64,000 bases of DNA from Pyxicephalus adspersus (Eukaryota; Chordata; Amphibia; Anura; Pyxicephalidae), in assembly GCF_032062135.1 (NCBI RefSeq), contig NC_092859.1:89078162-89142161 (forward strand), read 5' to 3'. The notes beneath the pieces are model-generated. The model was not told the origin of the DNA. It did no database searches and was given only the letters and a program-made list of their open reading frames with translations. A program made the translations under genes and the position numbers. Positions 6,338-45,882 of the stretch are shown piece after piece. Each line of letters begins with the position of its first letter. The first letter of the stretch is position 1.

Positions 6338-8107
6338 GTATTTGCCCAAGTATAATTCAAGGGAATCACCCACCATTTTTTTAAATGATTCCACATATTA
6401 TATTATGTTATTAGGTATTTTATTAGCTATTTCATAATACATAATATATTATATATTAGGTATTAAATGATATTTACTAGGGGAATATTGCAATATGAAT
6501 TTTGCAAGGACAGATCTTGATACTGCAGAAGTAACTATTTTTCACCTATATTGGAATGTTGGGAGGTGATTTTAAGGGGGGTTATTTAAAACAGGGATCT
6601 CTTCTAAAAACACATTACCCAACCTGGGGAAACATAGCAGAAAGGGGATTATATTCTATCTACAGAGCCATCACTGTGTCCTCTCCCTAGTTAACTGGTT
6701 GAAGAAGTCCTATAAACCCCCTAACCAGTCTACCTGTGCATTAGGGTAAGAGAAGGTAAAAAATATACCTGCAATTATCCTTTCAACTTCCATGCCCAAC
6801 TTCTGTGTCTAAAGATGTTCTTTCAACAATGGCAGGTTAGAGTCTTGGGGAGCGTTGGCCCACTCCTTTCACTGCTCAGACAAAATTTTAAAGTGTTAAA
6901 AATACAGAAGTTCCTGCCTGGTTTCTTATTTGATATGCCCAGGAAACTCTGGTAAATTGGGTTCTTCTGACATTATAGGGAAATCCTGATTACCTAACTG
7001 CCTTTTGAAGGGGACCCCAGCATTTTGGGGGAGCCTCCCCAATGCTGTAATCCTTATTTGCTTTTATTAGCACAACAGGGGGGATGCATGCACTGAGGAG
7101 ACAGCCTGCATGGTTATGGCAAGTGGGTTGGTTTGGGGAGGAGGGGGGACACTATGCATTAACAACACAGGTTCAGCACTCTCCATAGGCCCAAAATCCA
7201 CATTTTAAAGAAAACAAGCAGGATAAATGAACATTTTTGACCACCAGGAAATAGTGAGGATATTGTGCAATGCAAAAAAGGTGAAGATGATGCACATTTT
7301 AGACCAAATCTACTAGTGCTAGCTAATTGGTTAGTAGCATAAATAAAAAAATAATTTCTATTGAAGAAGAGTCATTTGGTCTTTTTAAAATCTTTTTTTT
7401 ATTTTACTTATTTAGGCCTTCTATATTTCGTAAGCAGAAAAACTTCAACTTTGTTTCCACAGGTTCCCCAAAATGAGGATGCACTCTGTGCATAATGTTT
7501 AACTGATGACCTCTAGTATTAAATGTGTTGTGTGGCTGGTTCAGGGGTAAAAAGAAGATGTTTTCCTATGAACTAAACATGTGCCTAGTACCTAGTATCT
7601 TCTCTTGGGGGTTTATCTAAGCCTTGTATTTTATTGTCATGCTGACTCATATTAAGTACCAAGGGTTATCAACAAAGAAGTCTCTGCTTCCATGGATTTA
7701 AATTTTCTGTATCAAAATAGAAACTTAAATAGCTGAGCCTTATAAGCGTCCCTTGAGATGAAATATTCTTTGATGGTAAATAGTCATCTGCTTGGGCTGA
7801 TAATAAACCTCATAAGAGACATTAAATTATGTTATAATTTTCAAGTGGTTTAGTGCTTTTGCGAGATAACAGTGTAATCTCTGGAGTGCTGTATCTCTGA
7901 CAACATGACTTCCCTTCTACATTATTTATGAAAACATTGTTTCAGATTTGTGCTTTTGTTTTGATGTAATGTAGCCACCAATGGATGGGTAATTTAGGTT
8001 AACTGGGCAAAACCATTTTTAATAGGTTCATTAATATGCAGACTGATTTTGTAATGTTATTTTGAAAACATTTGATTAAAGACAAAGATTCAATGATCTT
8101 TTTTCAG

Positions 8108-8223
8108 AACACACTCAGAAAACGAGACCACTTCTGTATCACCTGCTGATTCCTGCACTAGTCCAACGAAAAGTGAATCATCATACAGTAAGACAGCCAA
8201 ACAGTGCCTGGAAGAGATTTCTG
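8108..8223 (+). CDS. nav3: NAV3 exon, residues 324-363
   Basis: A 116-base exon with acceptor ttttcag and donor G|GTAAGT. It completes the Arg codon of the preceding exon and leaves in phase 1 with the first base of a Gly codon. The product includes THSENET, SPADSCTSPTK and SYSKTAKQCLEEISG, close to human NAV3 at the same place. The phase-1 exit is the same as that of the alternative first exon at 18927-19467, so both can splice into 24124 in frame. Confidence 0.93.
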
Positions 8224-9195
8224 GTAAGTAGATCAATTAACACATGAAACAGTTACTTTCACAAAGCTGTAGGTTAGCTTGTTACCTATTCAACGCACTA
8301 TTACCTGTTATCTGTCATAAGATTAGAAAATGGATGGTAGAAGTGCTTGTACATACATGCAGGAGCCTCCCAAAAGTTTCCATTTTTGCCCAGTCCCATT
8401 GGATGCTGACAGTCTAGGCTCAGTCACCTCTGAGTTGTGTCAGAACTTGCAGCTAAGCCCAACCTCTATAAATTCTTCTTTGTCCACTCTCCAATAGACT
8501 TGTTCAATAGGCATATGGTATGGATAAGTTTTGACACCATTTGTAATCTATATGTTTTGACACCATTTGCCCAACACATCAGGGTTTAGGAGGTTGCCAG
8601 TGGTATGCTCTAACCTGCAGCTTTTTTGTTTCAATGTTTTTTATTAGTTTTCAGAAAAATTACAACATATAACAAACATACAAAACAAACATAATTTAAC
8701 AATTTACCAATCAGGATCCAACAAGTATCTTTAAAATAGAACCAGCTGCAATCAAGAAATCTGAAGACAGTAATACAAATCAAAATGCCCCTCAGGGCTG
8801 GTAATAATTAAACACACCGTATAAATAGCAATAGCAAGAAGGTATTGCCGGCTCGTGGATATGTAAACCAGGAGCCAAGATGTGGACCCTTGATTTACAT
8901 TGACAGTTATTAACATACGGAAACAAAAATATAAAAAAATATAACAACTAACAAAGTAGCTATTTGGTGGTGGTGGGGGGGGGTGCTATGACTATCGTTT
9001 CTTTAGCGTATATGTGATTGAATTTGAGGGGATTCTTTAAACCAGTCCCATACAGACCATGTCAGTTTAAATTGTTCTGTATGGTCATTATTCTCTGCCA
9101 CCAGCATTTTAATGTGACATATTTTCTAAAGTTCAGAGACCCAATCTCTAATGGAAGGAACCGTGACTTCTTTCCAAGATCTCGGGATCAAAGCC

Positions 9196-10580
9196 CTAGC
9201 GTCTGTGAAAAAATGGCGTTTTCCTACTCACCCATTCTTTGGAGTCACCATTATGAAACCAGTCCACCACACGCACTAAAACCGATGCCCGATAGTAAAA
9301 CATGATATCGGGAACACCTACCGCCCTCCAGCTTTTGTACCAATGTACGAAATGCCAACCGGGGGCGCCTCGCCTGCCACATAAAGTGTCAAAATAGACT
9401 ATGCAATTTACGTAGATAATTGGCTGGTACAGAGATTGGGACTGTTTGAAACAGGTACAATAACTTTGGAGGTATATCCATTTTAAGAGTGTTAATACGT
9501 GCAAACCATCCCAGCGGTAGGGAGGTACATTTCTGGAGTTCAGATTGTAGTTTACTATAAAGGGGAGAATAGTTGTAAGAAAACAGATTAGAGGGATTAG
9601 AAGTTATCATGACATCTAAGTATTTAATCGCATCGTTGCATACTCTAAAAGAAGTGTTGGTTGATGTCATTTGGTTAGCGTCTAGAGTAATATTAAGAAT
9701 TTAAGATTTTGAGTAATTAACCTCAAAATTACTAAAAAGACTGAATTTATCAAATTCTGTCAAAATACCGGGAATCGTGATGTGAGGGGATGAAATATAA
9801 AGGAGCAGGTCATCTGCATATGGTGACAATTTGTAGTGTGAGTCACCCAACTCAACCCCTTTGACATCTGGATTATGATGTAAGGCAACAGCTAAATGCT
9901 CCATTACCAACGCATAGAGCAATGGGGAGAGAGGGCACCCCTGTCTTGTTCCATTATGAATATGGAAAGAGTCAGACAGGGCACCATTGACCCTCATTTG
10001 AGCCCTTGGTGAAGAGTAGAGTGCTGATATTCTCGCAATCATGTTGGGACCAAGGCCTACCTGCCATAATGAAGAGTAAATGATTTGCCAGCTTACTTTG
10101 TCAAAGGCTTTTTCTCTGCCAAACGAGAGAAGGCACAAGGGCATGTTGAGTCACTAAAATGGTTTTGATGGTAATATCCCTCACCTCTCTCCCATATATA
10201 AATCCTGTTTTAACCTTATGAATCAAAGATGGCATGTAGCGAGATAGCCTAATTGCTATTAATTTAGAGAACAATTTAGCGTCCACATTTATCAAAGATA
10301 ATGAGCTATAGTTCGAGTATGTAACATGGTCTTTGCCTGGTTTGGGGATAATGGTAGAAATTCATCAGGAGCCGTATTTTGCTTATGTACCTGCTCCAAT
10401 GAGCATACCTTATCAGACATAAGTTTGATATCTTGAGTCCTAATCTTCTTGAGTCTAGCTCCATGCTGTATTAAGATCCCCCTAAGAACTGCTTTCAAAG
10501 CCTCCCATTGTATCGGGAGAGAGGTGGTGTTCGAGGAATGAACCCTGAGAAAATTAGATATCGTGTCTAGTACTGCCATA
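9196..10580 (-). pseudogene. LINE ORF2 reverse transcriptase remnant
   Basis: Several minus-strand pieces in different frames give a reverse transcriptase. The first piece, 10579-10292, has a linker typical of Tx1/L1 (LPIQWEALKAVLRGILI). A stretch reading IPKPGKDHVTYSNYSSLSLI follows. The next piece, 10295-10101, has NVDAKLFSKLIAIRL. The piece 10144-9701 has FDKVSW, NGTRQGCPLSPLLYALVMEHLA and SPYADDLLLY; the catalytic YADD is at 9820-9809. Two further pieces run to 9196. At least four frame changes or stops make it non-functional. Confidence 0.85.
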
Positions 10581-10639
10581 GAGCAGAGTGGGTCTTTGAA
10601 TAGTTAGTCATTGCACTTCCAGGTCCGTTCACCAGGGTG

Positions 10640-11333
10640 TTGAAGAGTTACCGTTACCAAAGAGTGATCAGACCAAGGACAGGAGTTTATGAAGGCAGTC
10701 GGGTGCCTTAGTCAATGCGGGAATACATCGAATGTGGGTGGGAATAGAAGGTATAGTCCCTAGTGGTCGGGTGAAGTGTACACCAAATGTCCATCAACCT
10801 AAGCTCATACAGTTTGGATCTGAAAGAATTCACTTTAGAATAGGAAATGGGGGTTTCCCAGAGGATGTGTCAATGCGGGGGTCTAGTACAAAATTTAGAT
10901 CACCTCCTTTTATGATAGTGCCCTCAGGCACTCCTTTTAAAATTTCCAAATACGGAGTGATGGTTGTCATGGGTTGCTGATTGGGTGCATAAAACGAGGC
11001 AACAGTAAACTTCTTGTCCCAAATGGAAAGCTTGAGAATTAAATTTCTGCCCTGCGGATCAGAGTGGGTATCTATAATCTGGACTAGCAGGGATTTATGA
11101 AATGCTATAGAGGCCCCCTTTGTTTTAGAATCAGGGTTGGAGCTGTGGGACCAAGTGGGATAATAAGGGTTACAGAGATGGGATCCGGTTTGTCTAAAAG
11201 TAGCTCTCCTGCAGGAGTAAAATTTGTATTCTAGCTTTGTGTTGGGTGTATAACAATTGGAAACGCTATTAAGACCCTTAATGTTTAGAGAACCAATTTT
11301 CAAAACTTGTGGATGTGCAATGGGTGCTGACAT
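10640..11333 (-). pseudogene. LINE ORF2 endonuclease domain remnant
   Basis: The minus-strand frame 11333-10830 begins with LKIGSLNIKGLNS, the usual start of the apurinic-like endonuclease (with the catalytic Asn in LNIKGL). It continues with KFTVASFYAPNQQ and the GGDLNFVLDP motif. After a frameshift the last catalytic block WSDHSLVTVTL is readable, with the SDH triplet at 10671-10663. All main endonuclease motifs are therefore visible but not in one frame. This enzyme nicks target DNA during LINE insertion. Confidence 0.8.
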
Positions 11334-12199
11334 GAAGGCAAGGAAGGGGAAAGGGGGTCACCAGACAAGCGAGACGGGCTAGTTTCCCTATGTGGGGGGA
11401 AGTGTCGGTCTGCGGCGGGAGGAAGCAAAAAAAAGTCTAGTCCCGTCTGGGGGAATCCGTGCAACCAAATGTGTGAAAAATCAAACAAATATAATATAGA
11501 ATGTGAACAATGCCAGTAAAATACCATGAAGAAAACATAAATAAAGCCAGAGTACCGAAAAAGAGCATCCGACACTTTATATAGGTAAGTATATACCAGT
11601 CAACCTCGACCCCACCACATGTATGAAACAGGTAGGCCCAAGGCCTGCAAAAGCATGGAGGGGAGGGGGGTGGGCATATTGTGAAACATCTATCCACTGG
11701 TAACTTGGTGGTATCTGCTCAGTAAAAAGGCAGTTAAAATGCCAAATAATGGCTCTACTAAATTGCAAGGGAGCCAGTGGAGAACAACATTAAATAGCCA
11801 TACTCAAGGTTTGTACAAACATCAAAGAGAAAAAACACAGGGCTAAAAAAAAAAAAAAAAAAAAGGACCGTAAGGTACATATTTACCAGTGGAGTCCGAA
11901 TGTCCAAAAGGTAGTCGATCATGTCCACGATGTAAACTCCAATAAAGAGCTTGCTGCAAATGGTGAGGTAGGAGCAATAAAAGATTCCAATGCTGTTCAG
12001 TAGAAAAACACGTTCCTGAATGACAAACAGGGAAAGGCTTCCATCGCTGGCTACTAGTAAACTGGGTATCAGGTATATAGGGTAAAATAACAGCAAAACA
12101 TATACCAGTGAATGTCCATTGGCGGATAGTTCAATGAATTTAAGCAAGGTTGAGAAGTTTCTTCAGCAGAGTTTAGAAACGTCATGAGGAGGATGGCGC

Positions 12200-13220
12200 T
12201 TCATGGGAACTGGTACCTGCCATGTGTTCTGCTACAGCTTCTGGTGGTATAGGAGGTGCAGAAGGTGAAAGATGTTGCACAGGGTGGGAAGAAGCTGCAG
12301 AGGGGGTCCTGTGTGAAGAAGGCATTATGGATGGCTATTCTATCAGAGTAATAGGAGGAAGCTGCAAATCCAGCAGTAACTGTAGAAGATCCATAGGAGA
12401 GTGGAGAATATGATTTTTGCAGCCTTTGCGTATGATCAAATGGAACGGATACCCCCACCTATAAGGTGTATTTCGGTCTTTCAGAACAGGGAGTAGTCCC
12501 TGTTCTGAAAGACCGAAGCATCCAGTGTGATCTTAGAACAATCTGGTAGGAGTTGAAGGTGTGCGCCTGCATATTCAATGGACTCTTCATCTCTAGCTTT
12601 ACACATGATATCCTCCTTGGTTCTATAGAAATGGATCCTGCAGAGCACATCCCTAGGTCACTGAGGATCTTACTTCGTGGGCTCAATGTTCTGTAAACTC
12701 TGTCAATCTCTACGTCCACATCTGGGGCTACCCCTAACAGGAAAGCGAAAAAAAAGCAAGCTGCAGAATGGAGTTCCCAGTTAGAAACAGATTCTGGAAG
12801 CCACCGTATGCGAATATTGGTGCACCTGTTACCATTTTCTCCATTGTCATAGAGTAGGAATAATGTGTTAGGTTGGGCTTCATGTCTTTCTAGTATGGTA
12901 CTGTGGGCTGTTATTTGAGTAGTAAGATCAGAACAAGCATTTTGCAGCATAAACGTGGTAGCTGTAACCTGTTGTATAGAGCGCTGCATAGTCTGGAACT
13001 CTGATTTGCAGCTCGCTTCGAGCCTGCCAATACTTTGTTCCAAATCGTTCCTGATGGGTAAGGCCCTAAGGTGTGCCCTCCAGTCCCAGTCATCCTCACC
13101 TGTTGCAGTAGATGTTGTGAAGGAAGAGACCTCATCCATGGAAGCAGGGATAATCGTGCTGCCGATTGGAGGATTGGGGGGTGGTGGCCAGGTGAAGGTG
13201 AGCCTCTGCTGTGGTCCCAA
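12200..13220 (-). pseudogene. LINE ORF1 remnant (RNA-binding protein)
   Basis: A 253-residue frame runs from 13220 to 12459 and continues after a frame change to about 12200. The middle contains NRCTNIRIRWLPES, matching the start of the ORF1 RRM-like domain (usually '..NNLRIRGLPE'), and DVEIDRVYR matches the later conserved ORF1 motif. A predicted helical stretch with regular heptad-like hydrophobics precedes it. The C-terminal part carries a 46-base hairpin (12472-12517) that has replaced normal sequence. Such proteins bind LINE RNA as trimers. This copy cannot make a normal product. Confidence 0.75.
12472..12517. repeat. perfect 21-base inverted repeat with 4-base loop
   Basis: The left arm (12472-12492, begins TTCGGTCTTTCAG) and right arm (12497-12517, ends CTGAAAGACCGAA) are exact reverse complements, separated by GTAG. 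It sits inside the LINE ORF1 remnant. Such a young, perfect hairpin inside old decayed sequence suggests a template-switch mutation. Confidence 0.95.
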
Positions 13221-13602
13221 TATTAGCTGTAACTGTGGGGGTGCCGCTGGTCAGCTTGCCGCACAGCTTGTCAGCTTGTCACAATCGCGGCCGCAGGATT
13301 TACTGAAAGGCCGCAGCTTTGCGGCCTGGTGCCTCGTAGAGTGGGCGCCTGAGGAAAAAAGACTGGTTTTTCATTTCTGGCTCCCCTTTCCTTTGGGACC
13401 CATCAGGAGGTGAGATGAAGGCAAAAAATGTGCTGAAGATCAGTGGATTCCACTGATTAGGAAAATAATGTCCTAAGCCGCCATCTGCCGGACACGCCCC
13501 CTGCAGGTTTTTTTTTTTTTTTTAATGTGTAACTTGGTAAAGGTCAAATGTGGTAATGAAAAATGTGTACTGCCTCTCCTGAGTGTGCCAGAGTTACGAG
13601 AG

Positions 13603-13768
13603 CAGTGCTTAACCCAGGATTTTTTTTTAACTGGGTGGGAAGAAATTTTAGGCAGGTGGCAGACCTTGTATTGTGACCCAACTTATCAGTAACTACCCAA
13701 AAACAGCCGGGTGGTTAATGAAAGTGCCGGGTGGTGTGCCCAGCTAAATAGGGCTGGGGAGAACACTG
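13603..13768 (+). repeat. dispersed MITE-like repeat, copy 1
   Basis: The left end reads CAGTGCTTAACCCAGG and the right end GGCTGGGGAGAACACTG, so the ends are weakly inverted (CAGTG/CACTG). The right part (aacagccgggtggttaatgaaag and ggtggtgtgcccagc) is the reverse complement of 41738-41850. No clear target duplication (only gagag on both sides). Probably a hAT-like non-autonomous element. Confidence 0.5.
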
Positions 13769-15321
13769 GAGAGACTGCCATTTTTGCAAAAAAAAGCAAA
13801 TTAGTGAACAGTCACACAATAAAAAAATCTAACATATTATGTGATAACTAGTAGGAGTATCTTTGTTAAAGCCTTTTACAGTATAACAATAATAAGTAGG
13901 GATCTCAACAGGGAGACCAGCAATGAAAAGGGTTGGGGTCCTTCCACAACTCTGCTGGAAAACTGCTGCTTTGTGCCCAAAAGTAGTAAAGTGCACTTTA
14001 GGTAACATTTGCATGCAGCAGTGGCATGGACATTCCAAGAGCAACCATGCAACCCTTTATGTTCTGCAATCTTATGCAGCTGTTGCAAAGAAAATGATTC
14101 CCAGCTACTCCTATTCACCTGTATGGGAATGTGGTTGATTCCGTGACAGAACACTGGAGCTTACTTCGGGTTTAAAATTGCCTTTAGCAGTACTGGGCTA
14201 GGACTGGAAACCAAAACAACACTAAGGTTCTGTGCCAGATGCCCATGATAGGAAAAAGAAAATCATCTTACATATAAACATATTTAATCATTTTTTTAAA
14301 TTTTCGATCCATATCAGTCAATAAAACAAGAAAATTTGCACTTTCAATTTGAAAAATGTGAATGAAGGGATGAGGTGCTCAAACAAGAGGAAGAACATCT
14401 CTTGTTGGCCATTGGAAATAGAAATATGTAGAAAAATACAAATATGTGTAACTTGTCTTACTTTGAACATTCTTGCAAATTTTGCTTGCTGGGTTATCAA
14501 CCTGCCTCTAAAACCATAGTATGAATAATCCTAATGTCATTGCTATTTAGATTACTGTTTTTTTAAACTAAGGACCGTTTTTAATTCACAACATGAATAT
14601 CACATTTGAAACAAAAATTATTGCAGCATGTCCTAACTTAAAACATACTATTTGTTTTTTGGGCACACTAAGTAATTCTCCATTTTGTTACAGACTTTTA
14701 TATAAGTGACTTCTTTTTCCAATCTTACGCTAGTTATTTATTTTTATATTGGGCCAAAATGCTAATCAGATTCCAACCCCAACTCAGGAACATGTGCTTT
14801 CTTGAACTGCCAACAAAACACAAACAGATGGCAAATGCACAGTATCTGAAATGTATCCCAGTTACCTCAAAAATAGCATTGGATATTTGAAGACCAGATC
14901 TGACTTTGCACATTTCAGATACCATAATGGGAAAATTGAACCTATTCTGTCCATCTGCCTTAAAGAAAGCATACACATTTGAAAAACAAACATACAGCCT
15001 TATTTAATGTTTTACTAAAAATTGCTTGTAATACTTTTACAAACACTGTATATGTTTAAGTGCCAGCTTTAACAGGATTGGCTTTTTTTAATAGAGGTGT
15101 AAAAGGATAGCCTTAAAAAAAAAAAAACCCTACAATCACTATAAAATCACAAATCCATGTAGAATTAAAAGTGAAAGCAATTGTATGTGTTGGAAAACCA
15201 GCCCTGCTAGATGAAATATAGTATCTCAACAGGGGCAAAAATGTTACATGATGCAATTCACAGTTCTCTTCTTCTTCAGACTGAAATGCCTATCAGCAAT
15301 TACAAAAACTATATACTAGAG

Positions 15322-15751
15322 CAGGGGTTGGCAAACTTTTATGGCCACTAGGCCATTTATGGGGTGGGCGGGAGCACACTAGGCTGGGCCCACCCTAAAG
15401 GCTCTGCCCACCACCAGGGAATGCCCCCTGAAGTGAAATCCCTCTCCTCCTTATGCATTGCGGAGGAGAGGGATTTACCTTCAGGGAGCTTTTCCTATTT
15501 ACCGTGGCGGCAGAAATATTAACGCCGGCCGCAGTAAATAGGGCAGCAACTGCAAGGGGGCTGCACCGGAGCTCCAGTGGCTTCAGCTCCAGTAGTTTCT
15601 AAGGCCCCCTGGCCGATCCACCGGCAACCCGCGGCTTCAGAGCCGCGGGCTGCCAGCCGGCATTAGGCCAGATCGGCCAGGGGGCGTTAGGCCGGAACAA
15701 GCTACCAGCTAGGCTGTATCTGGCATAAAGGCCGGAGTTTGCCGACCCCTG
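15322..15751. mobile_element. non-autonomous hAT element with 8-base target duplication
   Basis: A 430-base GC-rich element in AT-rich surroundings. Left end CAGGGGTTGGCAAACTT and right end AGTTTGCCGACCCCTG are inverted repeats with one mismatch over 16 bases. The flanks are tactagag (15314-15321) and tactaaag (15752-15759), an 8-base duplication with one change. Eight-base duplications and CAGGG-type ends are standard for hAT transposons. It has no transposase frame, so it must have moved with help from an autonomous element. Confidence 0.85.
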
Positions 15752-16586
15752 TACTAAAGGAACAACAAAATAACATAATGTATGTCATAACAATTATATG
15801 CACACCCATAAAAGTATTAATAAATGCAACATGTATTTTTTGTCTGTGTCCTGTAAAAAGCAGGCACTCCTATTTACATGCATTTATTTTTTAACTCTTA
15901 ATGTATTTTAATACAACATATCACAGATCTCAATTTAAAACATCAACAAAACCTAGGCATGCCAACTATGTTGTGTTAAATAAAAAAAAGAGACATATTT
16001 GCAAGTTTTCCTTATTTTTGAATCCCTAATGAACTACAGATGTTTGTCTCTAATAATGTGCATCTGTCTTGTGATGTCTATTTTATTTTATTACATTAAC
16101 TAAGTTGTGATCATAACAACATATTGTGTGGTTTTATGCCCATTCCATTTGTTTCTGTTTTCCAAGATTTACTCTTTAAAGCTGAAGACCAGTCATTCGG
16201 CTAAATACTTTATAGATCTGCTTGCAAAGGATTGAGCAATTGTTTTTATCTTCACATCCAATCCCGGTTCTGTGCTCCATAAAGTGTATCTGAACTCAAG
16301 AATATTTTTAAAACCAAAACCTATAGCTGAGCTCCCCTCACAAAGACAGATTTACTCTTTATTGTATATTATGTATATCTCAAACCTTTTTTTTAGGTCT
16401 TAATGACTGTTCTCCTTGTTCATTGTTGACATATTACATTGGAAGGTCACAGCTAAGTGACCATCTTGGAGGAAACAAGTAACCCTTTAGAGTCAGTAAA
16501 AAGGTCAAAATAATTTGTTATGCAGGAGATTCTAGTTTCAGAATTTGCAGAAAGTGAGATGGCAGTTTCCATGAAACAGACACAAT

Positions 16587-16707
16587 GGACCTGATTCATT
16601 AAAGCTCTACCAGGCTGGGGAAAACACACTTTCCAGGTTTGCTGGATCACACAGGTTCACCGAAGTGTATCTTCTCCCGCCTTGGAGAGCCTTAATAAAT
16701 CAGGCCC
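16587..16707. mobile_element. palindromic MITE family A, copy 1 (short form)
   Basis: A 121-base copy. It opens GGACCTGATTCATTAAAGC and closes TTAATAAATCAGGCCC, and carries the family core (CCAGGTTTGCTGGATCAC). Compared with the other copies it lacks the central half. Flanking duplication is unclear. Confidence 0.75.
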
Positions 16708-17545
16708 ACTGCATGTGTTCCAGATCTGTACAGAGGCAATGGAACATGCAGACATAAGATCAAGTGAGGGTTTAGTTACTACACTGCCTTTCAATCTACC
16801 TACCTCTGTCTACAATCTGCCCCAGCCTGAATTTAGATAAAAAAGGAAGAACATTACACTGATGAGGTCATCCTTCTTGCAATTTCCTCCTGCTAGGAAG
16901 TTTTTACGTTAAAATCAACACCACTTTCCAATAAAGTAGAGTTTATGTGGCTTTAGTGCTTTTATTATTTTCCCATTCTGACCAGTACTGTACAGACAAA
17001 TACAAGATAGTGATATCAAGGTGTATTCAGGTTACATTTAGCTGAATGTAAAAATGTATGTATTTCAAAGTTAATGATTCCATAGCTGGATAAAATGATG
17101 ACTTTTATATCCTGGATTTCAACTTTAATGATAATGGTCTTGCCTTTATTGGTTTCCTTATTACAAAAAATAATAAAAAAGCTATACCTATAGTAATTCT
17201 TATGTAAAATAACTTATTACTTGTTACGTGTTAAAAAAGTATTCCTCTTATTATTTAGTGGGCTGATTCTACTTGATAAAGTGGATTTTTATTATGTAAA
17301 ATTGTTCCAGTGTTGTACAGTCTAGGGCTCTACAGAGCTCCAAGTTGGTGATGTAATTGCTGTGCCTCAGGCAGTGACACTACATTGAACCTCTTTTTCT
17401 CAGCACAACATTTATTTTTGGACTTTGCAGATGCTATAGGGAACATAAATGTTACAGGGATTATGAAATCATTTTTGCCATACTAGGTCAGTGCTGTGGT
17501 TTCTGATTCTTTCATTAAACTAAACTAGAAAATATTTTACATTTT

Positions 17546-17548
<3 letters not shown>

Positions 17549-17579
<31 letters not shown>
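17549..17579. repeat. AT dinucleotide microsatellite
   Basis: An uninterrupted run of about 15 AT units within the 15.9-kb intron. Confidence 0.95.
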
Positions 17580-17582
<3 letters not shown>

Positions 17583-18329
17583 CATAAATATATATCCTTT
17601 GAAATGCTGCTATCACTCTTCTTGTAGCTGTCAAGTCCCATTGACACTATATGTAAAAACACTATTTGTGTTTTTACATATATTTTAACTTCTGCTAACA
17701 TGTCCACTTTTTTTATATGCTTTCCCTTGCTCACATTATGTGGTGGTAGTGATATTCTAAAATATGTGAAATACAACAAGACACTAGATATGATTTACTA
17801 AAGGAATACAAACTCCTCACTTACCAAAGCAAATTTTCATTTAGTTTGGTCATTTTGTCAATCTGTGTTCTAAATACCCAACCATGCAATGTTAAAACTA
17901 TAACCTGATTTTTGGTTGCACATGATCGAACAGCAGTGAACACAGCTTCACTTAATTTGCAAAGTTAACAGTTGTTAATGCTTAAGTAAATGCACCTCTT
18001 TAGGAGAATAGGAGCCACAGTGTAGCTCTCAGCGTAAGGAACAATGTATTCAATAGACTGTTGATACTTTTAACTCCAACTGCACAGACAAGAATCACAA
18101 AAAGAATCATTTTTCTGTAAGGTTTAAAACTGACATTTCAGATAATTAAAAAAACACACACACACAGGTACCTTTTAGAAATGTATATGTTTTTTAGGAT
18201 GCAAGCCAAAATTGTACATAAAACAAAATGCAAATATACCTGTGACATACATGTGCTTTTGGAACATTGCAATGTGATTACACATATGTGCAGAATAAAA
18301 GCTGTATTTTACATACAAAGCTTTGTCAG

Positions 18330-18926
18330 ATTCACTGAACTTTAACCTGTCAGCAGAGGACCTGTCGCATTGGGCTGGTGGACACAGCTCAGTGTAATCA
18401 GGAGGCTGTCCGCTGCCATGGCAGCTAGCAGCGTGTACTGCAGTGCATGGGAAGAGTCAGATCTGGGGATGCAGGTTGAATACTAAAATGTTAGCAGACG
18501 ACTTGTACAGAGCTAGGCTTTACTTGTACAGAGCTCTGACGTTGCTGTACTTGCAGCACTGTGTCAGATAAAGTGGTGAAGATCTGTGTTTGGAGGAGCT
18601 GATTGCAGAAAGAGGAGACTTCACAAGGTGAATGAGACAGTATTCATTTAAATTTGGATCCTTTAAAAATGATGACTATTTCCTTGGATTCCTCCGGTTG
18701 TGAGATGGGAAGAAACAGATGGATTTTATTCTGGGGTTGGACTGCTTTATTGAAGCAGCATGCTTTACATGCATCCGTAAAGGATTTGTTACAGCATTAG
18801 GATTACCTCTGCAGTTATGGTGCAGTGATGGGTACGCACAATATAGCACACATGTATAGCCTGGAGTCTTCATTTGCTCTCCCACATGATTAAGTAAGTC
18901 TAAGAAGTGATATGCCATTGTGAAAG
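18330..18926 (+). promoter_or_regulatory. nav3: putative promoter-proximal leader of the short nav3 transcript
   Basis: This stretch is visibly less AT-rich than its surroundings and leads directly into the alternative first exon. A TGA at 18921-18923 lies in frame two codons before the ATG, as expected of an untranslated leader. It contains an upstream ATG in strong context (GCTGCCATGG, ATG at 18418) with a 22-codon frame ending at 18486. No convincing TATA box at a fixed distance was found; an AATAAAAG word at about 18293 is too common here to be counted. The transcription start is unknown, and the leader could itself be spliced. Confidence 0.4.
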
Positions 18927-19467
18927 ATGCAACGCCCAACTGAATTACCACTTGTCAAGAAGAAGGATGTGATAAAAGATGCTTCTCTAAGGAAACAAAA
19001 GTCTATGACAAATCTGTCATTTATTAGTGGAAGCACAGAAAATGGCATGCTCTTCTCTTATCAAGCAAGCTGGCATGAAGAGACCTCCAGCTCACAAGTC
19101 CACTTCCACAAGAAGGAAAAAAAAGTTGAGGCTACTACCTGTCTATCAAGGATTTTCTCCCAGTCTGTGCACTCACTGTTTCCTGCTACATCTTGGGAAA
19201 CTGAAAGTGTGGCACCCAGCTACAATGGGTTATCACGTAGGAGATCATCCTATCACTTTACAGGAAATCAGGATTTACTGACCTTTTCAGTGGCAGGTTG
19301 TCCACAGCTGGTTGACCAGCAATGCAACAACTTGGGGGATATGCGGAAAAGTTGGTCTGAGGAAGATGAGGAAAATGGCCAGCGAGAAGGAACTGCTCAT
19401 TTGGATGAGGAAGTCATTGTAACCATGCTAGCCGACCTAGAGCAGGCATTGTATTGTGGGATTCTTG
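18927..19467 (+). CDS. nav3: alternative first coding exon of a short NAV3 isoform, NAV1-like N-terminus
   Basis: The exon gives 180 codons from ATG 18927 (A at -3) plus the first base of a Gly codon, then donor G|GTGAGT at 19468. It joins in phase to 24124, giving ...LYCGIL-G-EDPETRRM. Residues 21-32 (LRKQKSMTNLSF) match NAV1 LRKQKSLTNLSF; a later SQSVHSLF resembles NAV1 KSEHSLF, and the end (EEVIVTMLADLEQALY) matches NAV1 ELVVTVLGDLEQLLF. In NAV1 this block also lies directly before the ...RQNLEETMSSLRG segment. The middle is Ser-rich and acidic near the end (SWSEEDEENGQ). The resulting protein would lack the calponin-homology domain and the large SxIP exon. That transcription starts here is inferred; the coding frame, donor and homology are seen or recalled. 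Confidence 0.85.
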
Positions 19468-20435
19468 GTGAGTTAATATTACCAAGGTGCCATATTGGAA
19501 ATTGTAGACTTGAGTGATGGGGCTAGAGCAATATAATCCTCTCCTTATGTAAAACTTCTATGCATTTTTTTCATTACAATAATTATACCTGTAAAATAAT
19601 ATCTGGTTAGGTGCTAATGTCTTTTATGGTTGTATACCAGCTTCACTTTTTCTTGCTAGCATCGGTTAGGACTTGTCAAAATTACATATAACTTCAGTAA
19701 CTGGTTTTCAAACGTACCCATATGATTAGACTTTGTCAGTATGATGCTGGATAAGGTTGGTTAGATTTCTACATATGTAATGTTGTTTTTTCTCTGTGAT
19801 TCAGTTTTCATTTCTCTTGTTCTAGTGTTGGCAGGATAAAATTCTTTACTGTTGTCTTTGGCTTATGACTGACATTTGATTTGACCATTAAAAAGGGCAA
19901 GGGTGTAGAAAATTAGAACAGTCATCAAATCACATGCAATAAAATCAAAATAGGATTGACCTACTAGCATTTTAATTGTATATTGCACATATTAGCACAT
20001 GTATTGAATGCACCACTTGCAATTAACAATTAAACCATTTGTTGTAAACATCAATGAAATGAGTAAGCTTTTAAATCTGTCAGATGATTTGCCTTTCTGA
20101 ACAACTATTCCTGAAATTTACACAGCACAGATAATCTGGGGATCTAATATTTTTCTGGTGCCATTAAGCAACAAACCTAGGACGCTTCCCAGCCTCTGGA
20201 CTGTGATTGGACAGTGATGGAACAGCAACACCCTGATGAAGTTGGTTATCTTTGTGTGCTCTTCCTCTTTTTTAGTGCTTATAAACGTTGGAAACTTGAT
20301 TGGCCTCAAGTACAGTCTCTCTACCTTACCCAGTCTAAGTGTTGCTGTACAGGGTATTACTGAGCCTGAAATGAAGTCAAATTTAAAAAAAAAAAGCAAA
20401 TAAAAGTATGCCTATAGTTATACGTTAGTGTGGTT

Positions 20436-20565
20436 ATTACCATCAACTTGGGTAGTATATACATGGAAACCAGTTATACCTACTAATATGTTTTTGGATT
20501 GTGAGAGGAAACATGGAAAAATGTACACAAACTTCATAGATATAAGGCCACTCCACAATGTCCAC
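20436..20565. repeat. fragment of the dispersed repeat also seen at 6057
   Basis: Shares 'cctactaatatgtttttgga', followed by a 'gtgagaggaaac' block and 'acaaacttcatagatat', which are the recalled central phrases of the frog repeat present at 6057-6337. Diverged and truncated. Confidence 0.4.
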
Positions 20566-22314
20566 TAATGTCCTCTGTGTGCCAGACCCTCACCTGGGGA
20601 TGTCTCCATTGTCACATCTGCATAACCTTTTACTTTTTCTTTGACATCTTCGCATTTCAGGGCTCATCGTGTCTCTCTCTTTAGTTATTCTTTAACAAGG
20701 GCCAATGTCTGGACTAGCTTTTCTTTCGTTATAGTTCCTCATTGGCATCTGTCCCCATTTAGGCTTAGCCTCTTTGTCTCTCTTGCTTTCTCAAGTCATT
20801 CTTTGGTATGGTAGTCGTTCTCTCTCTCACATGTTGTCTGTGTCACTTCTGGGTCTGCAGCCCATGCCAGTTCATATGTAACCACTGTACTGCACAGCCT
20901 CCCTGTCCTTCAGAAATGCTCCACCTTCAGAAATTTCAAGTCCATGGACTCTACTTATTCTCGCACACAAAACCTGACCTGTATGTTAAGGGATGCCATG
21001 CAAGACCCACCCTTTTCTCAGTTCAGACAGCCCTGGATTCCATAGAGTCTAAGCAGGAACACATACATCTGCTCATATTCCTCCATGATCTTCCTGTATG
21101 TCGTACAACTTACTAAGTTTGGGAATCTTACATATATTGTAGTATTAGAACCCATTGTATTTTCTTTTTAAAGCTACCATTGATTACAGCAATGTTTGTT
21201 GCATTTGTGACACTGTGACTGTGGCATTGTTTATAGGTAGATAGCTCTTTTTGTGATCAATGATTGTTATTCTGATGTGTAGTAAATACAACTTTAGTAT
21301 TTGTGATTAGACAGAAGCTCCATTATTAATAAAAATATGCTGTGCCTTCCTATTAAGAAAAATGTAAGTTTCTGCCTAATTGCAACTCGCTGGGTTCCTA
21401 AATCATTCTCGCTCTGTCAGCTGTCCATGTAAATATGCTTGCTGATGGACGCCTGCTGCAATAATTACTCATGCCAAATCACTGTATCCTTATAATATCT
21501 TTTCTAAGATGCATTTTCTTTATGTTATATATGAGAACTGATGCGGGGTCTGCAAAAAAAACATTTCTTGGTACCATCAAAGATCATTTGTAAAGCTAAG
21601 TTGTAGGTTAGCTGCTAAAAGATTTGTAATTTTATTTGGCCCTACTTGTGGTTCAGGTGGCATTGCCAGTCCTCTGATCTCCGGTGTAGTCAAGAATTAC
21701 AGTCTAGTCAAGGAACCAGCTCCAGAAAAAGTGCAGAAATGCACTGCCAACGCCACTCCTATGCATTAAAATGTTTAATATTTGATGACAGTGTTCAAAG
21801 CAATACAGCCCATTTCTAGTACAGTGTTGATGCATCCTCTTCAAGTCTGAGTTCTATTGTACAGTGGAGCACATGAAGCTGCAATAAAGACAGATATTGT
21901 AATGTACATGAACCCTTTTTACCAAAGAGCGTGGAAATAAATGCTACATATTATGGGATACGTTGTAGAAATGTAAAAGACATCATGCATTTGGGAACTG
22001 TAGAAAGAAGAGTAATACTGTGTGTAGAATTTCCCTTGTGAACAATATGTATAGTCCGTTTCCTTTAGCAGAGCGATAAACTTTAAAAGGCATGGGTAAA
22101 TAACCCCTGAGCCTGCAAGCTATGTACAGGACACAAATGCCACAGTTGTTGTACTCATCAGATGTGTAAACCTTATCACAAGAATATACAATACATTTAC
22201 TTTTCTGCACACTGAAAATAGACACATATCCAGCATTTCATCTGAGTCTTATAATATAACTTTATTTAGTCAGGGACTACTTAGACACCACCAAATGTTT
22301 AGACAATAATAGTT

Positions 22315-22890
22315 TAGTCAGGAGTATGTAATGTATAAAATAGTGTATATTCATTGTACAGGAGAGTGTAATGCACAGACTGGAGGGGTCAAGAATAACA
22401 ATAACAATGTGCAGGGATCAGGAGTATGTAAGTCATAGAGTGCAGGAGTTAGGAGTGTGTGATAAATGTAGTGCAGGTGTAGTTTATGTTCATTAAAGTG
22501 ATCAGTGGTGTAAATAACAGGAGTGCAGGTGTTAGAAGTGTCAGGCAGTGTATGCAGGGGTCAAGGGTGTGTAACACATAGAGTCTGTTTTTGTTAAGAT
22601 CTCTAGGACAAGAGAAGATAGGCCACTGTGAGTGAACCTGCGTGATCCAGCATACCTAGAATANATTTCTTTAAAAGCATTTGCTATTAGTAGGCAAATA
22701 CTTTCACTCCTGGACCAGATCCACTCCAGGTTTGCTGGTTCACTCATGTTCTCCCACAAAAGCCTAACTTCTCCAGTCTTAGAGAGCTTTAATATATCAA
22801 GCCCATAATTTGGCTCAGAGTGTAGGGGTCGGGAGTAAGAGGAAATGAAACACACGGAGTATAGGGTTCAAAGGGTATGTAACGCACACC
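22315..22890. repeat. degenerate minisatellite interrupted by a MITE
   Basis: A phrase of about 28-32 bases, roughly 'gtgcaggggtcaggagtgtgtaatgcatagag', recurs with many changes from 22315 to about 22585. It resumes at about 22808 (gagtgtaggggtcgggagtaag) and runs to 22890. The gap is filled by MITE family A copy 2. Unit order and divergence suggest an old array. Confidence 0.65.
22588..22804. mobile_element. palindromic MITE family A, copy 2
   Basis: Family phrases are readable: AGTGAACCTGCGTGATCCAG on the left, GCATTTGCTATTAG in the centre, CCAGGTTTGCTGGTTCACTC and AGAGCTTTAATATATCAAGCCC on the right. The copy holds the only ambiguous base in the window (22664). It splits the minisatellite around it. 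Confidence 0.7.
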
Positions 22891-23428
22891 ACCCAGACAT
22901 ACATTTTCTCCTCAAGCCGATATTCTTACCAAGCTAAAACTATAAATACTCCCATCACAAATCTCTTTTCTTTGCTTTAAACTTAGACCCATATCCCACT
23001 TTGTAACACAAATTAATTTTCCAATTCAGCTCCCCCAATTTCATGTATGTGGATGTGTGGCATCTGGCTTAGAAAAATTTCAACCGAGTGAACTAGCTTA
23101 AAAACTTCTAAACCATAGACCTAGAACAAGCATACAGTAAATAAAAGTCAGTGTGTCTGCATGTCTTCCAGGTTAGTGATTCAGAAGGTAGTAAAGTCAA
23201 AGCATTCACATGAACACCAAGCAACTAGCATATTCAGGAGGAGGGGAGCAATTATAACCAGTACCATCACTAGTACCAGCATCAAGGCCAGGTACCCCAC
23301 ATGTTAAACATGGTGCCCAAAGTTTCAAGGCCTAAAACAGCTAAATAATTTCAATACTGCACTTTGGTGCCACTTTTCACTTGTCAAACTTTCCGTTCAG
23401 TACATTTATTGTTTAGCTCCCCTAGTTG

Positions 23429-23442
23429 TGTGTGTGTGTGTT
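23429..23442. repeat. short TG microsatellite
   Basis: Seven GT units in intron sequence. Confidence 0.85.
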
Positions 23443-24123
23443 TTGCTAGCAGAAACAGGAACTGTTGAACCTACTTTTCCATCACCCTTGAAAAAAAAAC
23501 ACTTTTATTCAGTAGAAAGTCTTGAGCCCGGCATTCTATACCCTGTGTTGTGAATTTTACAGTCCTGGCTGCTCCACCCTATATGCAATGTTGTATGGCT
23601 GCAGAATTCTACATGCCTTGTTATGCATCATATAGACCTGACTACCGTACTGTATACACTATGTTTTACATGACATCTCTTTACTACGGAGGTAATTGCC
23701 TAAACAGTTCACAGAAATTTTTATGAAGTCCTTCTTTAGGGTAAGAAAATATGAAGTGTTAGTTGTATAGTTATATAAAAAACATGTGTAATTCAAGTTT
23801 AGTAAAGTTTAATTTAAAATTTTTGTTGTATATATCTGTGAGACTTTAACTTATGGGATGATAAAAAGTATGTTTTGTAACTACCAGGACTTTGGCATAT
23901 ATGTGTAGTGTATATAGCTTTGAGTTTAACCTACTTCTCTGAAGCCACTCTAAGTGGACAGATGCACTAATCACATTATACTTTATGTCCCCTGTGTGCT
24001 CCTGGGTGCCCCAGATCTTTCACAATCCTAGTAATTCCCTGATGACAGCCTTTATACAATTCTTATTACAGAACAGATATTTGTGTGTTGTGTTTGTATT
24101 GAATTGGAATTTCTTTGTTGTAG

Positions 24124-24232
24124 GTGAAGATCCAGAAACCCGGAGAATGAGAACAGTAAAAAATATAGCAGATCTTAGGCAAAATTTAGAAGAAACCATG
24201 TCAAGTTTACGGGGGACTCAGATAAGTCACAG
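24124..24232 (+). CDS. nav3: NAV3 exon, residues 363-399; shared by long and short isoforms
   Basis: A 109-base exon with acceptor ttgtag and donor AG|GTATGT. It reads GEDPETRRMRT, VKNIADLRQNLEETMSSLRG and TQISH, matching NAV3 almost exactly and NAV1 closely. It enters in phase 1, so it can be reached from 8223 (long form) or from 19467 (short form) without changing frame. The strong conservation makes it the best anchor for expression primers or read mapping across the two forms. Confidence 0.95.
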
Positions 24233-24971: not shown

Positions 24972-25355
24972 TACACTTGAGACAACATTTGATAGCACAG
25001 TAACGACTGAAGTAAGTGGAAGAAGTTTGCCAAGTTTGACAAGCCGATCATCTCCAGTTACATGGAGACTTGGACAAGCTAGCCCAAGGCTTCAGGCGGG
25101 TGATGCCCCCTCTTTTGTTGGTGCTTTTCCTCGAAGTAATGCTGGGCGCCTTATCCATACTGACCCATCACGGTTCATGTATACCACACCTCTTCGACGC
25201 GCTGCTGTTTCTCGCCTTGCAAACCTATCACAAGTAGAGATTTGTGAGAAGGGAAATCATGATCTGGACATGTCCTCAGAAGTGGATGTTGGAGGCTATA
25301 TGAGTGATGGTGACATACTTGGAAAAAGCTTAAGAACTGATGACATAAATAGCGG
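24972..25355 (+). CDS. nav3: NAV3 exon, residues 399-527
   Basis: A 384-base exon with donor GG|GTAAGT. It encodes STLETTFDSTVTTEV, a Ser-rich stretch SLPSLTSRSSPVTWRLGQAS, PRLQAGDAPS, DPSRFMYTTPLRRAAVSRL, and DMSSEVDVGGYMSDGDILGK followed by SLRTDDINSG. These are NAV3-specific in detail (RFIHTDPSRFMYTTPLRR in human NAV3, against HYSHTMPMR in NAV1). The basic/aromatic repeats belong to the microtubule-associated middle region. Entry is in phase 2 and exit is after two bases of a Gly codon. Confidence 0.95.
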
Positions 25356-44439: not shown

Positions 44440-45191
44440 GTATGCAGCACAATAAAATCAGCATTTGCCATGCAGTGTCATTAAATTCCAACCAAACCAG
44501 CAGTTTTCCCCCACAGTAATTTTATGAAAACTAGATGTCCCTAGTCTGATGGCCACATTATTTAACCTGCTTCTTCTGTGCCTAGGTCCTGGACCCACCC
44601 CCGCTTATTACTGAGCTAATGTGTCCTTCTGTTTCCCTATCCAGTAAGCAAGATTTTTGTCAGTACAGTACTTGAATGGCCCCTTGTACTGCTTCTTCCT
44701 CTCTTACTTCAGACATGCTGTACGGAGACTGTAGGAAGCTGACACCAAATCAAATTGATGTGCTTACACTGCTTACATTTAAGAAATTTGACTAATTTAA
44801 ATCAAACATATCTGTCTATAGATCTGCTTTTAGGTAATATTTCCAATTCTAAGTGTATAATGTACATTGGGTAACCGTTCTAACATTAAGCCTATGGGCC
44901 TGATTTATGAAAGCTCTCCAAGGCTGGAGAAGATACACTTTCATCAGTGAACCTGGGTGATCCAGCAAACCTGAAATAGAGCTGGTCCAGGATTAAAAAC
45001 ATTTGCTAACAAATAGCAAATGACTGATGCAATTGTATCCTCTCCAGCCTTGGAGAGCTTTCATAAATCAGGCCCTATGTGTTAAATTGCAACTTATTAA
45101 AGCCTATTCTGAACCATGTTGCTAATACCTTTTCTTGATTTCACTGTCTGGTGTAAAATGATTTCACCTTTCAATATTTATTTGTCAACAG
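44440..45191 (+). other. nav3: nav3 intron (752 bases) with MITE family A copy 5
   Basis: The MITE at 44896-45075 fills a quarter of this intron and ends only 116 bases before the acceptor. Otherwise plain intron. Confidence 0.85.
44896..45075. mobile_element. palindromic MITE family A, copy 5, best ends
   Basis: Ends are GGGCCTGATTTATGAAAGC and GCTTTCATAAATCAGGCCC, an exact inverted repeat over 19 bases. Inside, CTCTCCAAGGCTGGAGAAGA on the left is mirrored by TCTCCAGCCTTGGAGAG on the right. TAT lies just outside both ends (44893-44895 and 45076-45078), a possible 3-base duplication, which would suit a Harbinger-type element, but the other copies do not confirm it. Confidence 0.85.
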
Positions 45192-45882
45192 GCAAAACGG
45201 ATGACATTAAAGCATCGGAAAAAGTCAAAACACCACTCAAAGGCGGACCACTCCAACGATCACCCTCAGATGCAGGAAAGAGCAGTGGGGATGAAGGCAA
45301 AAAGCCACCTTCAGGAATTGCAAGACCTGCAGCCACTGGCTCATTTGGCTTTAAGAAAGCTGGGGTAGGCTCAGCAAACATAACTGCAGGAGGTGCAACT
45401 CTGACTAGTGGATCCGCAACTCTTGGGAAAATACCAAAATCGGCAGCAATTGCAGGAAAAGAGGCCGGCAGAAAAACTAGTCTTGATGGCTCACAAAATC
45501 AAGATGATGGAGTATTACTGGCCAACTCAAAAGCTACGCTCCAATATCGTAGTTTACCTCGTCCCTCTAAGTCCAGTACAAGTGGTATCCCTGGTAGAGG
45601 TGGACATAGATCCAGCACTAGTAGTATTGACTCCAATGTAAGCAGTAAATCAGCAGGGGCAGGCGGCAAGCTTAGAGAACCCTCAAAAATGGCCTCAGAG
45701 CGTTCCAGTCCTGTCAACATCAACCAAACTGACAAAGAGAAGGAAAAAGTGTCAGATTCTGAAAGTGTTTCATTGTCAGGCTCTGCTAAATCAAGTCCGA
45801 CATCAGCCAGTGCCTGTGGTGCTCAAAGCTTGAGGCAGCCAGGATCAAAATATCCTGACATTGCTTCACCAACATTCCGGAG
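45192..45882 (+). CDS. nav3: NAV3 large Ser/Gly-rich exon, residues 701-931
   Basis: A 691-base exon, acceptor tcaacag, donor AG|GTAAGA. It encodes KTDDIKASEKVKTPLKGG, LQRSPSDAGKSSGDEGKKPP, SGIARPAATGSFGFKKAG, SGSATLGKIPKSAAIAG, GRKTSLDGSQNQDDG, LQYRSLPRPSKSSTSGIPGR, GGHRSSTSSIDSNVSSKSAG, NQTDKEKEKVSDSESVSLSG and GSKYPDIASPTFRR, all close to NAV3. An SxIP tetrapeptide (SGIP, 45581-45592) sits in a basic stretch and may bind EB proteins. The many Ser-Pro sites are likely phosphorylation targets, by family knowledge. The exon is common to both isoforms. Confidence 0.95.

Follow-up and report, generated by a model that had tools for sequence, protein, structure and literature searches.

A NAV1-type exon within frog nav3 as a probable alternative start for a short NAV3

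A coding exon lying inside a 15.9-kb intron of a neuron navigator gene in the frog Pyxicephalus adspersus very probably serves as a genuine alternative first exon of that gene, homologous to the exon that encodes the N terminus of NAV1. The window, the whole stretch of 64,000 nucleotides that was analysed (G000:C2:89078162-89142161), carries this exon at positions 18,927 to 19,467. We take the gene to be nav3 and not nav2 on the basis of its likeness to NAV3 sequence and of the initial annotation of this DNA, the related gene models P0053 and P0051 bearing no gene name. Transcripts beginning in the intron, presumably at a promoter of their own, would be translated from the ATG at 18927 and spliced from 19467 to 24124, replacing the whole nav3 head 5′ of 24124 by a NAV1-type head.

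The start exon and its 5′ end

The features of the window are as follows, all on the plus strand.

619 to 1588: the 970-base SxIP-rich coding exon of long nav3, left out of the short form (AG at 617-618, GTAAAT from 1589)
8108 to 8223: nav3 coding exon reading THSENETT..KQCLEEISG, the last of the long-form head, with a phase-1 exit (AG at 8106-8107, GTAAGT from 8224)
8224 to 24123: long-form intron enclosing the internal start exon, set by the flanking exon borders
18294 to 18332: possible core promoter, weak and recognised post hoc, with TATA-like AATAAAAG at 18294-18301 and the initiator TCAGATT at 18326-18332
18330 to 18926: putative 5′ leader or promoter-proximal region of putative extent, marked by a GC step and upstream ATGs
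18921 to 18923: in-frame TGA, two codons before the ATG, which blocks read-in from an upstream exon
18927 to 19467: probable NAV1-type start exon, coding part, 180 codons plus the phase-1 G (frame, donor and homology)
18987 to 19022: LRKQKSMTNLSF block, common to the NAV1 exon (alignments)
19401 to 19466: LDEEVIVTMLADLEQALYCGIL block, the Ranitomeya counterpart of which is a confident helix in the P0053 model (invariant columns)
19468 to 19473: splice donor GTGAGT (Gly-Lys or Gly-Glu read-on in 46 of 51 relatives, as G/GT[AG]AG would give)
24124 to 24232: shared nav3 exon (GEDPETRRMRTVKNIADLRQNLEETMSSLRGTQISH), modelled as the second of two confident helices, with own-genome matches on C9 (90%) and C1 (74%)
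24972 to 25355: next shared nav3 exon (TLETTFDSTVTTEV..), directly next in the Ranitomeya model P0053
45581 to 45592: SGIP motif, lying in ORF 45113-45886, a shared exon further downstream, and retained by the short form (motif scan)

The nav3 exons at 619-1588, 8108-8223, 24124-24232 and 24972-25355 are collinear with more beyond them, and the start exon shares their strand. Its frame opens with TGA AAG ATG, continues through 180 codons from 18927 to 19466 and leaves the G at 19467 as a phase-1 base, directly followed by the donor. The shared exon begins at 24124 after ..TTGTTGTAG, the junction codon G/GT encodes Gly, and the joined frame reads GEDPETRRMRTVKNIADLRQNLEETMSSLRG. An ATG behind an in-frame stop, 180 open codons ending in a G/GTGAGT donor, a phase-1 exit fitting the exon at 24124 and a 970-base exon upstream had all been described in the initial annotation, and each was recovered here; the last is 619-1588, which measures exactly 970 bases between AG and GTAAAT and contains four [ST]x[IL]P sites. 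From stop to stop the open reading frame of the start exon spans 197 codons and ranks fourth by length in the window. Judged by their translations, two of the three longer frames are nav3 exons and one is part of a LINE-like element, pieces of which occupy 9196-13250 on the minus strand of the same intron and include two long frames, one reverse-transcriptase-like and bearing a YADD motif (9701-10150), the other at 12459-13250. The start exon matched no family in Pfam, no contig among the GTDB genomes, and only two chance-level sequences in the PDB (E 0.4 and 0.54).

Around 18.3 kb the GC content climbs from about 33% to 45%, with no CpG island at the step. The TATA-like and initiator pair at 18294/18326 is one of seven such pairs on the two strands of the window, for a pattern chosen after the fact, and 18330 as the exon start is a guess. 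Sixteen ATGs lie between 18330 and 18926, which favours either a spliced leader or poor translation. It is a serious, somewhat less favoured possibility that the start exon is real but is transcribed from a promoter situated elsewhere, by way of a non-coding leader exon, with an acceptor just upstream of the ATG being used; 18330 would then not mark the beginning of the transcript. Besides the upstream ATGs, this reading draws on a pyrimidine-rich stretch at 18867-18883 followed by an AG at 18893-18894, and on the frog NAV1 exon, in which a pyrimidine tract and an AG stand 14 bases before the ATG. Against it speak the GC step and the TATA-like/initiator pair, both weak, and the nature of the richest CpG patch nearby (15.3-15.7 kb), which is a transposon-like repeat. 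That patch, considered as a promoter at 15301-15700, was rejected on account of its structure, that of a short element bounded by terminal inverted repeats that are nearly perfect (CAGGGGTTGGCAAACT / AGTTTGCCGACCCCTG). The element, at 15322-15751, is the CpG-richest spot of the window, and has hAT-like, near-identical flanks of 8 bases (TACTAGAG / TACTAAAG) and internal palindromes; the terminal repeats were read by eye, the repeat-finding tool having returned only the palindromes.

Occurrence in vertebrates and relation to the NAV1 exon

A first protein search with the window exon (P0001) returned three contig proteins that are 85, 83 and 72% identical to it. Across the exon, the amphibian-type sequences P0002-P0004 are 84, 84 and 73% identical to the window and all three read G[KE] at the donor; the three contig proteins group with the frog Ranitomeya in a tree of exons. 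A profile built from four exons then found 51 proteins, 48 of them beyond the first three, among them sequences from Caretta caretta, koala and Scleropages formosus; matches up to E 10 were admitted and the weakest had E 1.2e-5. The protein searches covered proteins of 0.55 to 1.75 times the query length, a range that full-length short NAV3 isoforms exceed. Together with the window and P0053, these proteins form a nav3-type set of 53 sequences. In an alignment of 33 of 52 sequences the start Met and the K-x-K-S-x-T-N-L block are invariant in all 33, the LD..V..TML..LEQ.L block is mostly so, and conservation is poor in the middle of the exon. After five amphibian-type sequences and two fragments were removed from the 53, a profile of the remaining 46 non-amphibian exons found the window frame at E 6.9e-37 among open reading frames of at least 20 amino acids in the window and 270 kb of other loci, and this homology rules out a chance open reading frame. 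On this comparative evidence the start exon is coding and present in other vertebrates. A lack of protein similarity outside this species, which had been named as evidence against the exon, was not what the searches returned: similarity extends to frogs, a turtle, koala and bony fish.

Searched against its own genome, the window exon found itself alone at E values up to 0.001. When the fish exon P0051 was used instead, the shared exon was found three times, in nav3 (C2) and in the two nav3 paralogues of this genome (C9, 90%; C1, 74%), and an open reading frame 43 kb upstream of the C1 copy was matched weakly (E 0.07). This frame is the frog NAV1 exon. It reads ..SAELRVFRG..LRRQRSLTNLSVLTD..LSRSEHSLL..KVDPELVVTVLGDLEQLLFSQML and ends in G/GTAAGG, in the same phase as the window exon, and the next NAV1 exon begins AG/AT, giving Asp at the junction. 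The same block occurs in proteins named NAV1 from shark, tuatara and other species, the shark sequence being MHRATELKVFKGG, and of nine proteins with NAV1 or NAV1-like names among fifteen retrieved, four (P0058, P0061, P0064 and P0118) continue into the matching DPE[ST]QRKR exon. The frog NAV1 exon occurs twice in the assembly within an identical block of at least 3774 bases, at G000:C1:108410848-108414621 and 5379 bases further on (L006, L007, L018), reflecting either a recent tandem duplication or an assembly error.

The likeness was measured in several ways. A single BLASTP comparison of the frog nav3 and NAV1 exons gave 25% identity over residues 16-173 (E 2e-7), and hhalign matched the 33-row alignment to the frog NAV1 exon with E 3.6e-15, covering its first half. 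Within the window and 270 kb of other loci, the 46-exon nav3-type profile found the frog NAV1 exon at E 9.7e-17, and a profile of 115 of 116 NAV1-type exons found the window frame at E 5.4e-14, a value to be read with the mild selection for likeness that comes from gathering the NAV1-type set with a mixed NAV1/nav3 profile. The NAV1-type exons came from the best 120 of 183 matches, and ten of the 115 have NAV1 or NAV1-like names. Because the own genome's exon was omitted from the NAV1-type profile that finds the window frame, the homology to NAV1, which the initial annotation had proposed, has now been tested; it is borne out by that profile match, by the aligned blocks, by the common phase and by the same seven residues between DLEQ and the donor. 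The two exons align in the M..AELxVF start and in the LRKQKSLTNLS, LSxSxHSL and VxTxLxDLEQ blocks, and in both, DLEQ is followed by seven residues, the phase-1 donor G and the homologous shared exon. They differ in that the NAV1 exon contains an SRIP site (S[RKQ]IP in 111 of the 116 NAV1-type exons among the matches listed), which the window exon lacks; its sole [ST]x[IL]P match is TELP, with an acidic residue, and some [ST]x[IL]P is present in 22 of the 53 nav3-type exons. They differ also in that the NAV1 exon heads named NAV1 proteins, several of which have a longer N-terminal extension. By these alignments the window exon is homologous to the NAV1 N-terminal coding exon, and it has no SRIP-type motif; it is a paralogue of that exon and not a NAV1 exon itself.

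Of the 169 trimmed exons 49 were placed in a tree, in which nav3-type (23) and nav1-type (26) sequences are separated by one branch with an SH-aLRT value of 100; long-branch flags fall on the frog NAV1 exon and on the fish sequences of nav3 type, and the amphibian-type branch is also long (1.22). Both groups contain fish and mammals. By this tree the start exon is old, nav3-type and nav1-type exons forming separate groups that each include fish and mammals. A koala record of 228 amino acids labelled 'neuron navigator 1-like' (P0017) falls on the nav3 side and is, by this tree, a misnamed orphan exon, a warning that annotation can put that label on such exons.

The three frog paralogues carry complementary heads, as far as the searches see. 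Nav3 has the calponin-homology (CH) domain, the SxIP exon and the start exon; nav2 has the CH domain and the SxIP exon; nav1 has the start exon. The 970-base SxIP exon was matched twice in the genome, in nav3 (C2) and nav2 (C9) only. CH matches above the family cut-off include one 32 kb upstream of the window (C2:89045758) and one 40 kb upstream of the nav2 SxIP exon (C9:63365664); both are weak (26-27 bits) and were assigned by position. None of the 90 CH matches listed lies near nav1 (C1, 108.4 Mb), by a search that could miss a diverged nav1 CH exon. The nav2 intron that corresponds to the 15.9-kb intron of nav3 measures about 1351 bases. Neither the fish-exon search of the whole own genome nor tblastn over 250 kb found a nav2 copy of the start exon; a single profile run on 90 kb gave at best E 0.0069, to a minus-strand frame with a strong bias term, and three profiles on 250 kb gave at best E 0.06, to the same frame. 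These absences, in nav1 and in nav2 alike, hold for one genome and within the sensitivity of the searches. At the 3′ end of the nav2 shared exon, the exon end, donor and flank are repeated about 190 bases downstream (SLRGTQITH; G000:C9:63409892-63409921, L015), possibly as a tandem alternative 3′ end.

Under the duplication-degeneration-complementation model, duplicated genes reciprocally partition alternative starts. The complementary head sets of three paralogues in one genome fit this model at the level of sequence and would be explained by two old starts with one loss each in nav1 and nav2. The simplest reading suggested by these data is a pre-duplication gene with two starts that were partitioned after duplication: nav1 would have kept the internal start, nav2 the distal one and nav3 both. 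The initial annotation had regarded the NAV1 type of start as ancestral and retained inside nav3. Its age stands, given the two exon groups; that the NAV1 type alone was ancestral does not, and two old, partitioned starts are the better reading because the CH head is common to nav2 and nav3. According to the accessible text of a review by Powers et al. (PMC9877351), invertebrate navigators contain a CH domain, and its absence from NAV1 is likely a secondary loss (citing Maes et al. 2002). The NAV1-type start in nav3, with none found in nav2, would turn this loosely described CH 'loss' into a specific mechanism, the partitioning of two old starts.

An improbable alternative to common descent is that the start exon reached nav3 through later copying or conversion from NAV1. 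Its absence from nav2 in our searches would fit such an origin, which is opposed by the separate exon groups, each with fish and mammals, and by the same position, phase and neighbouring exon in both genes, so that a copy would have had to insert at precisely that spot, no later than early in the history of bony vertebrates.

Conservation at the donor and other uses of the exon

Among the 53 nav3-type sequences, 51 run past the exon, and 46 of these go on with Gly-Lys or Gly-Glu. The five others are P0017, P0028 and the fish-type sequences P0050-P0052 (one of them named), which diverge after DLEQ on long branches. In the mammal-like P0028, LLDLLEF stands where near relatives have LLGK or LLGE, leaving the donor unusable there through either an assembly error or loss. 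For the 27 of the 46 sequences with long enough tails, mean pairwise identity is 88% over the last 28 residues of the exon and 19% over the ten that follow the G[KE] pair; between two amphibian-type and the 25 other sequences it is 78% before the donor and 9% after it. Read from these alignments, the drop is the pattern of a protein-coding exon with a real donor. In gene models, which may be built by homology and do not prove transcription, the exon is joined to what follows. The partial product P0053 of Ranitomeya imitator, a model and not reads, runs from MQRPTELPL through ..DLEQALCCESL/GEDPEARRMRTVKNIADLRQNLEETMSSLRGTQISH/STLETTF.. in the exon order 18927-19467, 24124 and 24972 of the window, with the same 19467-to-24124 junction, and P0051 of Scleropages joins the start exon to GEDPETRRM via an extra stretch.

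This evidence bears on three further readings of the exon, to each of which we attach very little probability. Were it a regular cassette exon, spliced into the long transcript between 8223 and 24124, it would have a suitable position and a matching phase-1 exit, and the relatives P0007, P0015 and P0045 have an open frame ahead of the Met. In the window, however, TGA AAG ATG leaves no in-frame acceptor, since the exon 8108-8223 exits in phase 1 and the sole AG between the stop and the ATG needs phase 0; the stop and the phases thus exclude cassette use in this frog, and the invariant start Met and the N-terminal place of the homologous block in named NAV1 proteins also count against it. Nor does the exon look like a stand-alone small gene within the intron. 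Its frame does run 50 bases beyond the donor, to 19517, and the koala record P0017 is entered as a protein of its own, but conservation collapses at the donor, the tails vary from species to species, and the donor is where the Ranitomeya model is spliced and where the Caretta product stops. That the exon is a relic, once used and now silent in this frog, would suit the long amphibian-type branch and a leader full of ATGs, yet a relic would break, and the frame, Met and DLEQ block are intact here and in four other amphibian-type sequences (P0002-P0004 and P0053), the first three with the high identity and the G[KE] donor reading given above.

The predicted short NAV3 and known short navigators

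Long NAV3 consists of a CH domain, the SxIP exon, coiled coils and an AAA+ domain, the last two mostly outside the window. A short NAV3 would share with it all exons from 24124 on and differ in the head 5′ of that point. It would thereby have the NAV1 layout: a NAV1-type head followed by the shared exons, with no CH domain and no 970-base SxIP exon. This layout, as the initial annotation had drawn it, holds, except that the short form would not be free of SxIP motifs, given the SGIP in ORF 45113-45886, the one motif in a scan of twelve exon stretches of the window shared by both forms. Since the start exon has TELP and not SRIP, microtubule-end tracking of the NAV1 kind need not be expected of short NAV3.

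An AlphaFold model of P0053, made with 24 sequences, has low overall scores (pLDDT 51, pTM 0.30) and contains helices at residues 162-180 and 185-212 with block mean pLDDT values of 78-95, the junction residue Gly 182 lying between them. From this model we infer that the last block of the start exon would form a helix that packs with a helix of the shared exon as a hairpin. In long NAV3 the exon ending in KQCLEEIS would take the place of the first helix, and the choice of start would then swap the partner of the shared-exon helix besides removing the CH head. In the widest form of the proposal there were two ancestral vertebrate starts, the CH 'loss' of NAV1 is the loss of the distal start, nav3 has both, and the start supplies the first hairpin helix, giving two differently built cores, with NAV1 and short NAV3 forming one functional class as against long NAV2 and NAV3; we put this combination just short of an even chance. 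The proposal predicts CH-less NAV3 across vertebrates generally.

Short navigators from an internal start are already in print for NAV2, as far as the accessible text of the sources goes. A short NAV2 isoform with an alternative start upstream of exon 13 is attributed to Peeters et al. 2004 in PMC2843687, which also describes a shorter Nav2 that persists when a gene trap placed between exons 7 and 8 abolishes the full-length form, and 'alternate promoter usage' of NAV2 is stated in PMC9985553. Like the proposed short NAV3, short NAV2 is a shorter navigator from an internal start, in which the CH head should be absent. The two differ in that searches of frog nav2 (intron about 1.35 kb) turned up nothing homologous to the start exon, so that short NAV2 probably starts from a different exon. 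For NAV3, the accessible text of PMC11262617 mentions minor short transcripts with no sequence given, that of PMC11231287, PMC7005187 and PMC11754320 describes no internal start, and an alternative first exon was not found in the accessible parts of the open-access literature, though one may already have been published or be listed in annotation databases. Should the exon be present in human NAV3, as it is in koala, first-exon lesions would spare the short form. A homozygous c.243+1G>T change at the NAV3 exon 1 donor, reported in the accessible text of PMC11754320, would then be such a case, like the shorter Nav2 that survives the gene trap.
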